Assembly: GCA_023053545.1 (NCBI GenBank)
Contig: JAKZAN010000006.1
Location: 7,321,001 to 7,385,000 of the forward strand
Length of the DNA stretch: 64,000 nucleotides
Direction of reading: 5' to 3'
DNA from: Lepidurus packardi
Lineage: Eukaryota > Arthropoda > Branchiopoda > Notostraca > Triopsidae
Part shown: positions 45,882 to 54,675 of the stretch, piece after piece
Position numbering within the stretch: position 1 is the first letter of the stretch
Layout of the letters: every line of letters begins with the position of its first letter
Program-made: the position numbers and the translations under genes
Notes under the pieces: generated by a model
What the model was told of the DNA's origin: nothing
The model's database searches: none
What the model saw: the letters and a program-made list of their open reading frames with translations, nothing else

Positions 45882-47695
45882 TTAAACTTTACTCAGGCTT
45901 GCGCTTTTCTTCGGGGGTGAATAACTGTAGAGAAAGACTGAAGCCATTACCAAGGCGGTTCCCAGTACAAATTGGAATGTTAGGGTGAATTGAAAGAGGT
46001 AAATGGATGCAACACAGGACAGGACAATGGCCAACGAGGTTGCGAACCCTTTTAAAATATTGTCAGCATATTTGACTACCATCGCTACTAATAAGCCTCC
46101 CACTGCTTGTAGGCATATCAAATACCAAATAAAAGCGTCATAACCGAAAAAGAAACCATTGGCATGAAGTTGAGTCCAGTCGTAGGTGACACACGTGAAG
46201 AGACCAAAGGGCAGGGACAGGAAACTCAGCTGAATGTTGCGCATCCATACGGAAACGTCGGAACCCTATGTGGAAATCAGTCATTTGAGTCTGTTCCTGT
46301 AACTACATTAAAAAAAACGGGAAGCACTTAATAGAGAAATTGCCCGCCCCCACACTTTCATAGTTGGGGATGACAAGCACTGTTGCATGCCATATGCCCC
46401 AATGTCCTAGCTGAAAAAATGCTAAGTAATTAAACTTAATCACAACGTAAACAAACCATATTTTCTTTTCCACGTATTTCTCATGTGGGACAGTTGGTAT
46501 CCATCACTGCCAGTGTTCAGGGGAGGTTTGTGAGTCAAGCCATATAAAATATAAGCTTATAAAACATTATAAAGACTTAGGCTATTTCTTTGGGGGTAAC
46601 CACCCAACTTATCATTAAGAGGCCTAATTCGTCAAAGTAGTCGTATTTCAACAGACGAAGTAGTCTAGACAGATGTGCCACAAGCAACGACACCCCGTAA
46701 TGTGTGTTCGTATGCTTTTTAGACCCTTTAACCCGTATCTTAAGAAGGCAATCACGTGGCAGAAGCAAACTGCCTAGTCAAAGGTAATTAGAAGAGCATT
46801 ATAGGTACCTTGAGGATCTTTTCAAAGTAAATCCCCGCGAATCCAGAAAGTACGCAGGCCGACAATGCGGCCCCAAAACCTATCCAACGGTTCTGGGCTG
46901 GAGTTCCTGCTGCTTCTTTTGGGCTTTCTGTTTGTGCCAACTGAACAAGAGCAACACCTTGAAGAAGACAGAGTTCGTAAATGAATCTTACGTTGAAAAG
47001 ACACACAAGGGATAAGAAGCTCACCTGCGAGTAGAAGCAAGAGGGCAAACCACTGAGTTACAATAAGCTGACGTCTTAAAATGGCAACTGTGAACAACGC
47101 AGTCGTCAGGATTTTGAGCTGATAGGTTACCTAGGGAACAAACGACAATAAATAGCTCAGCTGAATTGAATGAAGTAGACGGCCAAATTACTTGGTAAGT
47201 GGCAGCGTCGAGATGAGAGGCGGCTACATAGAGAAGATTGTTTTGTATAACGTATACCATTGAAGGCACGCAGACTTTTAGGGTGTCAATAGGTTGTTGG
47301 ATAATTGTACGATGCAACGCAATAACCCAACGATTAAAGTTACTTCCTTCCTCTCTATACACCAGACCAAGGCACGTGATGAGCTTCACAAGTTCCGACA
47401 TAAGTACAGCTGCAGGGAAATTAAATTGACATTAGCAAAATCGTTATCATTTAATAACTTTGATACCTGTGGATGATAGGAACATATCGCCTGGTCTAGT
47501 TCTGGCATACCGCATACTCAACCCGAGTACCGCATTCTGCAACGTTAGCGTAACTAGACTTACGTACTTCATCGAATTGCCACCTAATAAAACGAAAAAT
47601 AAAAGTACGGTAAATGCTAAATCAAAAATCATATTTATTTATCATTGAATATTACCATTACTGCCAACTTTCTGGACTGCATTGCTAGTACTCAT
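45882..47695 (-). CDS. SLC35A2: UDP-sugar (UDP-galactose type) transporter, SLC35A2 family
   Basis: Nucleotide-sugar transporters of this family exchange cytosolic UDP-galactose (or related UDP-sugars) for luminal UMP in the Golgi. Six exons in coding order: 47656-47695, 47467-47583, 47192-47409, 47025-47130, 46809-46957, 45882-46265, giving 337 residues. Family blocks: KYVSLVTLTLQNAVLGLSMR in the first membrane helix, RYARTRPGDMFLSSTAVLMS, VPSMVYVIQNNLLYVAASHL, AATYQVTYQLKILTTALF, GFAGIYFEKILK, VWMRNIQLSFLSLPFG and VVKYADNILKGFATSLAI. The KYADNILKGFA block is typical of SLC35A members. About ten membrane helices are expected. It is divergent with the first Orai gene (592 bp between start codons). 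Which sugar it carries (Gal, GlcNAc or both) cannot be decided from sequence alone. Confidence 0.93.
46266..46808 (-). other. Largest SLC35A2-like intron
   Basis: This 543-bp intron sits before the last exon, while the other introns are 57-72 bp. I see no transposon signature or alternative exon that keeps frame. Confidence 0.5.
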
Positions 47696-48286
47696 GGCCA
47701 GAGCAGCAAAGAACACGTTAAAAAGATAATTACAGGGTTAAAATCGCTTTACTTTACATACAAGCATCAACCAATCTAAAACACTACTTTGTACAGGACG
47801 ACGATATGCAACTGAACTAATAAACAAGCGCGCTTAGTGACGATTTGTTTACGGGGTTGCCAAATTATTTGGTACCAGCATTGTATTTACTAATATATTG
47901 TCTTATTATTTGAGTGTTAATTAATTAATAGTATTTTTACTAATCAGTTTTATCCACACAAGAGAAGTATTCTTGTTTCATTTTAATCCTATTGGCACTG
48001 TTGAAAAGGAGCAATTGGGCGTATTTAGAGGAATGTTTCTTCAGGGTCACGTGTCAATGTTATGTTTCTCCCATATAAGTTGATGGAATACTTATATTAC
48101 TTAGTGTCTAACGTAAATATACCAATTCAAGGAGCAGAAGACGATAGAATAATCTAACAGATGTATAACAACTAAAAATTTGATGAGTTATTGCAAATAG
48201 GCGTGCACCACAAGAAATTGTGGAATTGGCTAGTTTAGTTACTAGTTTTTTTGTTTCTACTACTCTACTAATAGCAGGAAGACATC
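47696..48286. promoter_or_regulatory. Divergent promoter region SLC35A2-like / Orai-1
   Basis: The start codons of two divergent genes are 592 bp apart, so both promoters must lie here or in unseen 5' exons. The sequence is AT-rich and includes TTAATTAATTAAT. No specific factor site can be claimed. Confidence 0.45.
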
Positions 48287-49022
48287 ATGTCACATGCAGG
48301 ACATCTTGAAACGGAAAGCCTGTCATGGAGAAAGCTTCATTTAAGTCGTGCAAAGTTAAAGGCTGCGGGGAATACGTCAGCACTGCTCGCCGGTTTTGCA
48401 ATGGTAAAATGTAGGGTGAGATTCATTTGTTATAATTAATATTTTTTTCTCTATTTTCTTGGATGCAGATTGGGCTAGTGGAAGTGAACTTGGGTGAGGG
48501 CATACCTGACAAAATACTGATTCCGTTCGCCATTTGTACAGTTATCCTCGTTTCCGTCCACATGCTGGCCTTGATGATCAGCACCTGTATTCTTCCCAAC
48601 ATTGATGCAGTAGCCAGCCTAGGTTCTTCGAAGTAAGAATAAACTTACAAACTATTGTGCTTGAGCGTAAGTTTCTCTTTCCTTTTTTCAGCCTTGTTAA
48701 AGAGTCGCCACATGAAAAGATGCACTGGTATATAGAACTGGCATGGGCCTTTTCGACAGTGTTTGGCATCATTCTTTTCATGGTCGAGATTGTGCTCCTG
48801 TGTTGGGTTCAATTTTATGAGAAATCGCAAAACGCTGCCATAGTTGCCACCGCTATCCTTATACCCGTAATCTTAATTTTCGTGGTGTTTGCATTTAATT
48901 TTTATCGAAAGTTAGTCTCTCACACGTATCAAGTTCGCCAATCTGGCATCCAAGATTTGGAGCTGATGAAAACTCGACTTGAAAACGGTACTTTGGAGTC
49001 CTACGCTAATCAGGATATTTAA
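48287..49022 (+). CDS. Orai: Orai calcium-release-activated channel, copy 1 (short)
   Basis: Orai forms the pore of store-operated calcium channels and is opened by STIM at ER contacts. Three exons: 48287-48403, 48469-48632, 48692-49022, giving 203 residues. The N-terminus before TM1 is only about 35 residues; it keeps [14 protein letters not shown], the extended TM1 helix start that STIM couples to. The pore helix reads [16 protein letters not shown] and keeps the selectivity-filter glutamate (human E106). Human V102 is isoleucine here, and human R91 lies in AAGNTSALL, so it is asparagine. TM2 has [10 protein letters not shown] (H134 kept). TM3 has [20 protein letters not shown] and LLCWVQF (E190 kept), and TM4 has a proline at the P245 position. 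The C-terminal helix ([13 protein letters not shown]) is suited to STIM binding. The TM3-TM4 loop is short. A related copy lies 0.9 kb downstream. Confidence 0.95.
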
Positions 49023-49909
49023 AAAGCGTATATTATCATTATACTCACAAAACCAAAGTTTTTTAAGTGATCAGGGAGTCACTTATATCGTGTCTGCCCG
49101 CTCTTTTGGTAGGCAAAATTACGTCTCTCCATTGAGTTTATTTATGTCGAAAACAAAATTCATATGTCATGCCCTTTTTATACCCTTTTGTGCAATGTGT
49201 GGGTCTTCTCCCGAATAAACAAGAATTTATCATTTGGATACCAACTCTTCTTTTTTATGCTATTGAAATATTAAAAATCTGTCGGTGATTCAAGGAGACA
49301 CAAAAGATACGTTTGGAGAGATTACGACATTATATCACGTTAGAACGTCTTGTTTGTTGCTTAGTATTCACAAGCCTTCCCTTGTCACGAGTTCTCTTTA
49401 TTGCGCAACGGTGAACGTGGGTTTAAAATTCTCAGGTAGTAATGCCGTATAGCTTTTACTGGGTTCCAATTGACACCAAATAAACCGTACGACTTTCTTT
49501 CTTCAGCAAAAATCGTGAAAGCTGCTTGGAATCATCAGTCATCCACTAGACAGTGCGAACTGTATACGGGCACCTTTCGGCCGTAGGCAATTTTTGAGAG
49601 TCGCAAAACCATTTCCTCCAATGGCGAAAGTTGTAAGGTAAGGAAATTAAACATTGTTTTGCGTATTTGTATTTTTTAAAAAGTCTTGAGCACCCTTCTT
49701 GACCCTTAAACTTCACATCATTATAAACAAGTGATAATGATCTAAAACTATCTTCAAGGTAGCAGAGTACACGAGGTAAAGTAATCACTGCTTCAAGAAG
49801 ATAAGATAGGGGAACAAACTCAAGTGTTGCTTAAGCAATAGATATAAATTCTAATCTGTGCATGCTATTTTTACTTTACAGCCCTTTGCTCGAGGCGGTG
49901 AACGTTCAT
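49023..49909. other. Spacer between the two Orai genes
   Basis: Contains the first gene's 3' UTR with AATAAA at 49214, and presumably the promoter and a 5' untranslated exon of the second gene, since an acceptor (TTTACAG) lies at 49881. No other exon is recognised. Confidence 0.55.
49214..49219 (+). terminator. Polyadenylation signal of Orai copy 1
   Basis: AATAAA about 190 bases after the stop codon of the first Orai gene, in AT-rich DNA. It is the first canonical hexamer on that strand after the stop. Confidence 0.5.
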
Positions 49910-51179
49910 ATGCAAGTATCGGAGACACTTCGCAAATTGAGCAACCCCATGCCTGATGCAAGCACGCGAAAGATATGCTTCGATGATGACATAAGACGTA
50001 ACGAACGAGTAGCTTACTTATCACGTTCGACTAGTGTACGACGGAGTGCGAGTGCAAACGCACTTGTCATGACGGATGGAAAAGCTATACGAAACTCGCC
50101 ACCCGAAAAGCGACACATGACAGGCAATGGCATCTTAAAGCGAAGCGAGTCGTACACACCAAAGGCATTCGCTGATTTTTCCCTCGATAACGAAAATATT
50201 CCACTGACACTGGACGCAAGTACCCTACCGGAGCCAAGTTCGCAAAGAGAAAGTCGAAAACATCCTTGGAAAACTGTACAAGCTGTTTCGGCTCTTTTGC
50301 ACTTACAGAAGCATGCATCGACTTACGGACTGAAGAATCATTCTACAGCAACGAGCATAAACAGCGCTAAAAACGTACGTAATACCAGAAATTACTAGAT
50401 CCGTTAGTCCAGAAGTTTCTATAATTAAAGTAATTCTAGGAAACACCAAAAAAGGAATACAATGAAACCAGTCCCGAATTTCTATCATGGAAGAGGTTAC
50501 ATGTTAGCCGAGCCAAGCTGAAAGCCGTGTCCAATTCTTCGGATTTGCTGGCAGGATTTGCTATGGTAACTTTTTGCCACACGTTTAATAAATTCCTAAA
50601 AAAAATAACTTATACTGTAGACAGGATTGGTAGAGGTCAATCTCAATCACGATGTTCCGGAAAGCATCATGATTCCGTTTTCAATCGTCTCTGTCATACT
50701 GATTTCAGTTCATTTGTTAGCTTTGATGATCAGCATCTGCGTTTTACCTAAAATAGACGCCGTTGCCAATACCCACCATATTGGGTAAGCCTATGCTGTA
50801 TTTCAAAATATGTCGTTTTTCTTTAATACTGTTCTGTCTTAGTTTGGTCTATGAATCCCCACACGATGAATTAAAGGGTTACATCGAGTTGGCCTGGATG
50901 TGCTCAACCGTCATTGGTCTTACGCTGTTTTTGGTCGAGATTTGCCTCGTGGCTTGGGTACAATTATACTCCTTTTCCATAACATCCGCTATATGCGTCA
51001 CAGCTTTAATTATACCCATCATGTTCCTGTTCTTGGCTATTGCTTTGCATTTCCGGCAAAAACTAGCAATCCATACGTATAATGTCCGATTACAGGGACT
51101 TGAAGAATTGGAAAGTTTGAGAAGTCAATTGGAAACTTCAGAAAGGGGCTGTTATGTTAACCCTGCCTTCGTTGTATAA
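49910..51179 (+). CDS. Orai: Orai calcium channel, copy 2 (long N-terminus, divergent pore)
   Basis: Four exons: 49910-50374, 50440-50565, 50621-50784, 50843-51179, giving 363 residues. The first 155 residues are a polar, serine- and charge-rich cytoplasmic extension with no match I know, including [14 protein letters not shown]. The channel part starts at [19 protein letters not shown] and follows Orai closely. TM1 reads [16 protein letters not shown]: the filter glutamate is kept, but the position of human V102 (the hydrophobic gate) is threonine and that of R91 is asparagine, followed by Ser-Asp. TM2 is [12 protein letters not shown]3 is [19 protein letters not shown] and the C-terminal helix is [12 protein letters not shown]. 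The third exon is 164 bp, the same length and phase as exon 2 of copy 1, which supports tandem duplication. The threonine depends on the acceptor CTGTAG at 50620; the nearby GACAG gives a stop. Confidence 0.93.
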
Positions 51180-52028: not shown

Positions 52029-54675
52029 TTAGGCTCCGTATGACTTTCTCGTTTGTTGTACGGTTTGTACCAAGGCTTTTAACTTGGCACTCCTAAAAGT
52101 AATAAGAACAGAAGACAAAAGAAAAACATTGTATACGTATGTACGGATTATATAACACAATTCGACTTACTGATCTGCAAGAACGTTCTGTACTTGCTTA
52201 AGTTGCATCGAATTTAGCTGAATTTCTGTTGCGTCATTTTGCTTGACCGTCCTTTGCTTTTCCAATTCCCTACTCTTACGCTTGAGCTTCTCCAGGACAA
52301 TCTGTAAACTTGCTAAACTGTCCCGAGTTTGGCGTAAGTCATTCTTCATTGCAATTTCCGCATCAGAAACAACTGGCGAGCTCTTCTGAACTTGCAGTAG
52401 TACGCTCTCAAGCCTTAAGAACAGCGTATTATACAAGAAGGTTTACGACAACAAATGATGTGTCACCTCTCCATGAGCTGATTTCGCTTCTCCTTAGCGT
52501 CCTCGTATTTATCCGCCAATACATGTGCAGTCTCGGTTAACTCGCTTCTTGCTTGACTTAACATTGACATTTCCTCCAATTGCTGCGTCTTTTGCATTCG
52601 TGACAAGCGAGACCTAGTAACAAGCTCAAACTGCTTCAAACTGACGTGTCAACTGATCCCGAACTTACTTCTTTTCAATTTCCTCGCGCGCCAAGTCTTG
52701 TTTCAAGATGTACTCTTCTCGCAGCACTTGGAGGCAATGAGTGAAAAGCTGCAGCACCACGAGGCCATTGTAAATGCAAATTTCTTGAGAAACGAGACAT
52801 TCAAATTCACAAATTGGAATACCTGTAAAGCTTCTTGCATGGGAGGTTCTGGTCCTGACAGTTTTAGTTGAGGCTGGGATGTTTTCCTTTGCAGTAAGCG
52901 GCGAATAAGATTTTCAAATTGGTTTTGCGAAACCTATTTACAATAGAAAAGGCTGTAAATAATTGAAGGCGTTCCGGAATAGCTATAGTGTATCCGATAT
53001 ACCTCAGCATTTGCCTTCGTTCCTTTCTGCAATGACAATAAAGAAGTAGGGACGGAGGGCAATAACATCGGTGCTAATGGTAGAACCACCAGATCGTAGG
53101 AACTCAGTAGACCCAACAATACCGGCGGTAACGGGTACAATACAAGACCTTGAATAGGCGCGGGGGACATATCGAGTACTTGCGTGCAGACCACATGTTC
53201 GACGTGACTGGGTTCACCAAGATTCAACGAAGGCTGATCTTTCAACTCCTCTGCAAACGGGAAGAACATTTCTGTAACTTAACAAAGTTTTCGGGGAGGT
53301 AACTTCAGACTAACCATCAGAAACGTTGGCTAATTCTACTAGACGATGCACCATGGGCAAAGAAACGGCATGAACCCCTGCCTGGTGACACACATAGTAC
53401 CTAGAAGGAAAAACAAGAGATAAAAGGGGCCTTTGTGTTCAATTAGCGCGACAGAAACCAACCTCGCAGGTATGGTGGGGTCTCGCAGTAGTTGAACTCC
53501 GCCATCCATATTTATTTCTTTGTCCACGATCAAGCCCGCTTCTAATTCTAACGCCTCCATCACGTGCATCACACTTTGGGCTGGCGAGTACGTTGCCGTG
53601 CTAATATTGGACCAGGAGAGCAGCGACTACGAACGAAAACCGTTAGGAAAAAACGTATCTTTGCAAAAAAAGACGAAGATTTTTAATAAATAAGGAAATG
53701 CACACCTCTAAATCATCATTGTCATCCCCAACGGATTCGCCCTCAACGCGAGGCAAAATGATGCCATGGTACAGTGTCAAGCCCGCAGTTGCCAAAACCA
53801 ACATTGGTGGAGTAGTGGACAAACACAATAGGGCACAAGCATCCGAGCCATAATTATCATCGGCTGGCGGGAACATGGGCACCGGACCGTGTACCGTGGT
53901 GCGGCTTTTGGACAGCGCCAACAAGTTGCTAATAAACGTGTAAACATAGCCATTGCCTTTGAGTACGTAGACAGGCCATTCTAATTCCTTTTCCTTCCCA
54001 TCTTCGGCCAGAATGTTCATGTCGGTCAGATGGCTGTGCTTCAACGAGAGCCTGGATAAGGCACGTTCCGGGGAGATGTACTTGGAATGATCAGCGCTAT
54101 TGAGAGGCAAACCAAAGTCAAAGGAAACGGCCACCTCCCCAAGTGAAGTCGAAAAACTCGGTTTGTTGGACACGAGACTGTGGCCAGTCGTTTTGCCCAC
54201 CGGGATGACTTGCAGGGCATGTTCGGGCTCATCGAGGCGGTAAAGTCTACGAAAAAGAAAAATTTGCTTCCGATTCAAGAGCTTTCGGACGTCCCTCCCC
54301 CCTAAATCATGACTCACCTCATGCAATTATCCGACGTTAGGACAAAGAGATGGGTGTAGTTTGACGAGCCAGGGTGCCAGGCACATTTCTGGACAATGAT
54401 ATTAGGATTGTACAAGGTTACCTTTTCGCCAAGTGGATACGATCTAGCCAAAAAAAGAAAAAAAAGTTAAGATTTTTATAATTTTTACACAAATAAACGT
54501 GAAGATTTTACTTGACAGAAATTTTCTCTTTGAAGTTGTCTTGTCTAATGTTCCAGTGATGCGGCAACTCGACAATTACGACACCTTGAAGACCATACAA
54601 CAGAACACTGGTACCATCAGGATTGGGAACGACGTACTTGACTTGAAACAAGGGTGGATCCGTCAAAATGAGCGT
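52029..54675 (-). CDS. NUP88: Nucleoporin NUP88 (N-terminal end unresolved)
   Basis: NUP88 sits on the cytoplasmic face of the nuclear pore with NUP214 and NUP62, and tunes CRM1 export. Eleven exons in coding order: 54512-54675, 54318-54443, 53706-54246, 53463-53626, 53315-53400, 53003-53250, 52823-52933, 52669-52748, 52467-52613, 52171-52413, 52029-52092. They give 657 residues in one frame (human 741). The beta-propeller half shows LTDPPLFQV, VIVELPHHW, CAWHPGSSNYTHLFVLTSDN, GEVAVSFDFG, PADDNYGSDACALLCL and YYVCHQAGVHAVSLP. The C-terminal half is coiled coil: EEYILKQDLAREEIEKK, ADKYEDAKEKRNQLMER, VVSDAEIAMKNDL. The first 50-80 residues are missing. A frame with NLLLIYGVLFIYIF lies just upstream but one base out of register. 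Another (54713-54802, starting MPHLFLSRKLHDAL) joins in frame only through a 37-bp intron. Confidence 0.93.

Follow-up and report, generated by a model that had tools for sequence, protein, structure and literature searches.

V102 is a gate residue of CRAC channels, and it is valine in all four of the family members we compared (human Orai1, Orai2 and Orai3, and fly Orai). What we say here of published mutants comes from excerpts of the papers named. Table 2 of PMC8347056 gives valine at V102 and arginine at R91 in all three human proteins. In human Orai1, the polar substitutions V102G, V102S, V102T, V102A and V102C give channels that conduct without STIM1, and isoleucine, leucine or phenylalanine at the same position keeps activation by STIM1 (PMC5321763). 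A second source counts the same five changes (V102A/C/G/S/T) as gain of function (PMC7825772). V102I is non-conducting if it is paired with more hydrophobic residues at F99 (PMC5321763). V102A prevails over loss-of-function mutations at other sites of the channel, R91W excepted (PMC7825772), and R91W blocks the V102A and V102C channels (PMC4835918). For the inner pore, excerpts of a review (PMC12893689) state that hydrophilic residues at 91 preserve function whatever their charge, that R91G alone is not constitutive and that neutralizing the basic residues of the human Orai1 inner pore abolishes activation, which V102A restores. For an asparagine at 91 these statements conflict, since it should be mild by one and closing by the other. 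Farther along the protein, single changes at L261 or V262 of human Orai1 give no constitutive activity (PMC5155162). Vertebrates have multiple Orai subunits per genome, able to form heteromers, and heteromeric Orai channels are known (PMC8347056). Closer to the animal we discuss, the genome of Daphnia pulex has been reported to hold one CRAC channel gene, according to excerpts of PMC3879215.

Lepidurus packardi has two. The window, by which we mean the whole 64,000-nucleotide stretch of its genome that was analysed, contains a pair of Orai genes in tandem, both on the plus strand, with the open reading frame of copy 1 at 48287–49022 and that of copy 2 at 49621–51179. Both belong to the Pfam Orai-1 family (PF07856, cut-off 25), with significant matches across the four-transmembrane domain: copy 1 at 8.4e-65 and 218 bits, copy 2 at 1.4e-48 and 165 bits. 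Copy 1 also matches the Pfam TRP family, with a score under that family's cut-off. On the minus strand, upstream of the pair, are nucleotide-sugar transporter open reading frames (45882–47431, two exons tested), and downstream is an open reading frame for Nup88 (53643–54326, minus strand, one exon tested). A search of the 108.6-Mb genome with PF07856 returned six exon-level matches, three per gene, all above the cut-off and all at the tandem locus; in the control, one of 14 genomes gave matches, below the cut-off. Pattern scans of viral contigs (two scans) and prokaryotic contigs (one) matched 6, 8 and 40 stretches, none of which encoded a relative, as expected. The tandem genes are both intact Orai genes, anciently duplicated, and they are the only ones found in the genome. 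A second copy in Daphnia was either missed or is absent.

Copy 1 is modelled with three exons (48287–48403, 48469–48632 and 48692–49022) and 203 residues from the nearest ATG; it has isoleucine at the position of human V102 and asparagine at R91. Copy 2 has five exons (49621–49637, 49882–50374, 50440–50565, 50621–50784 and 50843–51179) and 378 residues, with threonine at 102 and asparagine again at 91. All six modelled introns are GT–AG, each unbroken reading frame ends in its single stop, and an AATAAA follows each of them. A sequence-only reading of this DNA had proposed that the genes arose by duplication, on the strength of a 164-bp exon common to both and an intron at the same place in TM1. 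That proposal stands. The middle exon is 164 bp in both copies (93 of the 164 bases are identical), and the intron ahead of it falls between codons 101 and 102 in each. The copies probably share three intron positions, not one, to judge from the start of copy 1. An acceptor at 48277/48278, before copy 1 as modelled, lies 48 nt upstream of the conserved Trp codon, precisely the distance seen in copy 2, and the exon that begins there is 126 nt, equal in length and phase to its copy 2 counterpart. The match makes it likely that copy 1 starts further upstream, with 48278..48286 (plus strand) a probable 5' extension of its first exon, inferred from position and phase. By the same signals copy 1 probably has an additional upstream exon. 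A speculative candidate for a short first coding exon is 48062..48112 (plus strand), which offers 17 in-frame codons and the donor gtaaat. A TATA-like string overlaps 48062–48112, which could be promoter region instead of exon.

The N termini of the two proteins differ in length. In copy 1 as modelled, 13 residues precede the conserved Trp. In copy 2 the exon at 49882..50374 (plus strand), together with the 17-nt first exon (49621–49637), encodes 170 residues. At E <= 0.001 nothing in Pfam matches them, and a search of the genome at E <= 1 gave no second hit. Lysine and arginine account for 25 of these residues, aspartate and glutamate for 16. The contrast between the two N termini resembles that between the long and the short form of human ORAI1.

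Could the threonine of copy 2 be an artefact, the product of a wrong splice model or of a pseudogene? We enumerated the possible splices of the intron before the Thr exon, with GT or GC donors between 50480 and 50639 and acceptors below 50700. Twenty-one combinations, the model included, are in frame and open. The model alone keeps TM1 whole with E106, so the Thr codon holds against the alternative exon 3 acceptor that had been named as its possible undoing. The other acceptor usable with the model donor is 50636, and the filter glutamate is lost with it. Canonical splice sites and an open reading frame in copy 2 speak against an artefact too, and we regard it as highly improbable.

To number the pore residues as in human Orai1 we went through fly Orai, for which excerpts of published papers give K163 = R91, V174 = V102, H206 = H134 and P288 = P245; these equivalences agree with the PDB sequence of fly Orai and with our alignment. 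In copy 1 the Asn at R91 is AAT (48371..48373), the Ile at V102 is ATT (48469..48471), the first codon of the 164-nt exon, and the filter Glu at E106 is GAA (48481..48483). In copy 2 the corresponding plus-strand codons are AAT (50533..50535), ACA for Thr (50621..50623), again first in its 164-nt exon, and GAG (50633..50635). The sequence-only reading was therefore right about the filter glutamate in both copies and about Ile and Thr at 102. It was right as well about Asn at R91 in both copies. The other two basic residues of the inner pore, K87 and R83, are kept, so that only one of the three has changed. Also kept in both are F99, L95, the latch residue M101, H134 and P245. Both genes thus retain the equivalents of E178, F171, L167, K159, R155, H206 and P288 of Drosophila Orai (PDB 4hkr and other constructs), a member of the same family; the fly protein has K163 and V174 where these copies have Asn, and Ile or Thr. 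Within the hydrophobic gate, F99 and L95 are joined at 102 by a hydrophobic residue in copy 1 and a polar one in copy 2; a mutant at V102 nevertheless still counts as an Orai channel. With F99 unchanged, the combination of V102I and an altered F99 is absent from copy 1.

Other changes surround these. S97 is Ala, A103 is Gly and M104 is Leu in both copies. Those specific to copy 2 include A94D, A177M, F178C, A235S, Y258R, R259Q, V262A and S263I. The Asp at human A94 (50542–50544) is near the neutral N91, which makes the charge at the inner end of TM1 lower still. The gating hinge, LVSHK, reads LVSHT in copy 1 and LAIHT in copy 2; single changes at L261 or V262 are not constitutive in human Orai1, so the hinge change of copy 2 alone need not open the channel.

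The duplication is old. The copies are identical at 105 of 196 residues, and copy 1 matches fly Orai at 118 of 193, copy 2 at 96 of 193. Four-fold sites agree between the copies at 9 of 46. Over the 196 codons there are 252 base differences, 133 at third, 69 at first and 50 at second positions. NG86 gave no dS (saturated) and maximum likelihood gave dN 0.38 and dS 4.67, values we use solely to state that silent sites are saturated, and it is from this saturation that we take the age. The share of third-position differences (133 of 252) and the few identical four-fold sites, with neither frame broken, point to long-term constraint on both copies.

For outgroups we took fly Orai and human ORAI1. 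Twelve sites unite the two copies to the exclusion of fly and human, and the other two arrangements have 5 and 2, which places the common ancestor of the copies after the split from the fly lineage. Among the 12 are S97A, A103G, M104L, Q108N and S152A; the last may reflect an engineered residue in the fly crystal construct, which leaves 11 safe sites. On these patterns the duplication is separate from the origin of the vertebrate paralogues Orai1, Orai2 and Orai3, which have Val and Arg at 102 and 91 in human. With Lys in fly and Arg in human at its position, R91N is outside the 12. Most simply, it would be a single change before the duplication, as both copies have Asn with the same codon. 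Position 102 is Val in fly and human, and so Ile and Thr are both derived. Copy 2 has evolved faster than copy 1. At sites where the other three sequences agree, it has 27 changes and copy 1 has 8 (P = 0.002). When fly is the sole outgroup these numbers become 40 and 18 (P = 0.005), and a tree of the four sequences gives the two copies branches of length 0.60 and 0.23.

The faster rate might mean that copy 2 no longer has normal channel function and serves mainly to dampen copy 1 as its partner, or that it is in decay. This would fit the lower Pfam score of copy 2 (165 bits, to 218 for copy 1) and its substitutions in TM3, in TM4 and in the hinge. Yet the filter, F99, L95, the latch Met, the TM2 His, the TM4 Pro and the STIM-contact positions are all kept, and the 378-aa reading frame is still intact after silent-site saturation. 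We think a modulatory or non-conducting copy 2 distinctly unlikely.

The partner is present as well. A search for the STIM SOAR domain found one locus in the genome, on another contig (C3, 6459248–6459676, minus strand), with three exon matches, two of them above the cut-off; the exons look conserved. In the control for this search, two of 14 genomes gave matches, none above the cut-off. The middle SOAR exon reads LFGAF, then IDDVD, which we take to be the region of human STIM1 that contains F394. The C-terminal STIM-contact positions L273 and L276 are, in the alignment, Ile or Leu and Leu in the two copies. For a STIM-gated CRAC channel, then, the genome has both the kept C-terminal contact positions and a STIM gene. 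A side observation from the same genome is a GH7 cellobiohydrolase-like gene on contig C2 (9754774–9756260, minus strand), with PDB 4xnn, presumably the Daphnia pulex enzyme, as its best PDB match. GH7 genes are rare in animals, and this one, like the short introns and the small genome, would fit a crustacean close to Daphnia, which is probably the nearest animal to have been studied.

What might the two copies do? Copy 1 we infer to be a conventional STIM-gated CRAC subunit. We expect its V102I to behave normally, since human Orai1 with Ile at this position is still activated by STIM1 in excerpts of PMC5321763, and R91N is probably mild by itself. The interest of R91N, present in both copies, lies more in its being the setting for V102T than in the change taken singly. 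For copy 2, the suggestion that it may be leaky gains support from the human V102T mutant, the same substitution, which excerpts of PMC5321763 and PMC7825772 place among the constitutive ones. The reading we prefer, to which we give about an even chance, is that copy 2 is a functional, STIM-coupled subunit with a weaker gate. In its favor, both genes are intact, and their introns match in position and phase. A ring of threonines at 102 would ease the passage of water and ions past the level of V102. With F99, L95, the M101 latch, H134, P245 and the two C-terminal STIM-contact positions kept, copy 2 should still couple to STIM and open more easily. The outcome would be a basal or sensitized entry of Ca2+, whether copy 2 forms homomers or joins copy 1 in mixed hexamers. 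If the R91N of both copies acts at all, it would favor the closed state, a possible reason that Thr at 102 is tolerated.

Several points count against a lowered gate. Any of the 27 changes of copy 2 could re-close or disable the channel. Asn at 91 might override 102, as R91W blocks V102A/C (excerpts of PMC4835918). The human mutant data come from another background, and S97, A103 and M104 are changed here. A rival reading is a compensated gate, in which Thr at 102 is not leaky given N91, G103, L104, A97 and the changes of copy 2. Copy 2 would then be gated by STIM in the ordinary way and would be set apart by its expression or by its N terminus, of which the 170-residue part would be one sign. 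Excerpts of PMC12893689 describe just such an offset in human Orai1, where neutral inner-pore residues stabilize the closed state and a less hydrophobic 102 counters them, and the R91W block of V102A/C agrees with it. R91N, common to both copies, is probably older than V102T. Against this, V102A overrides other closing mutations (excerpts of PMC7825772) and hydrophilic residues at 91 are reportedly mild (excerpts of PMC12893689). We consider the compensated gate possible, if somewhat unlikely. Less likely still, and offered tentatively, is a history in which an ancestral R91N tightened the gate and V102T later offset it in one paralogue, with mixed Ile/Thr hexamers whose subunit ratio tunes a graded basal Ca2+ entry.

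The weaker gate of our preferred reading has its laboratory parallel in human Orai1 with neutralized inner-pore charges and V102A, which corresponds to N91 and T102 of copy 2. Compared with the human mutants (V102T, V102A, R91G and R91W), copy 2 is a natural combination, in a tandem paralogue, with many further changes. In the excerpts of the Orai V102/R91 mutant literature that were searched we found no mention of the R91N/V102T pair. The new point, as we see it from comparison with the human mutants, would be a natural R91N shared by both copies, with V102T in one, at positions that interact in human Orai1. The proposed coupling of the inner-pore charge to the outer gate could be tested simply with this pair. 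V102T makes human Orai1 conduct with no need of STIM1, and a natural Thr, kept for long alongside a natural N91, would show how an animal tolerates such a change.
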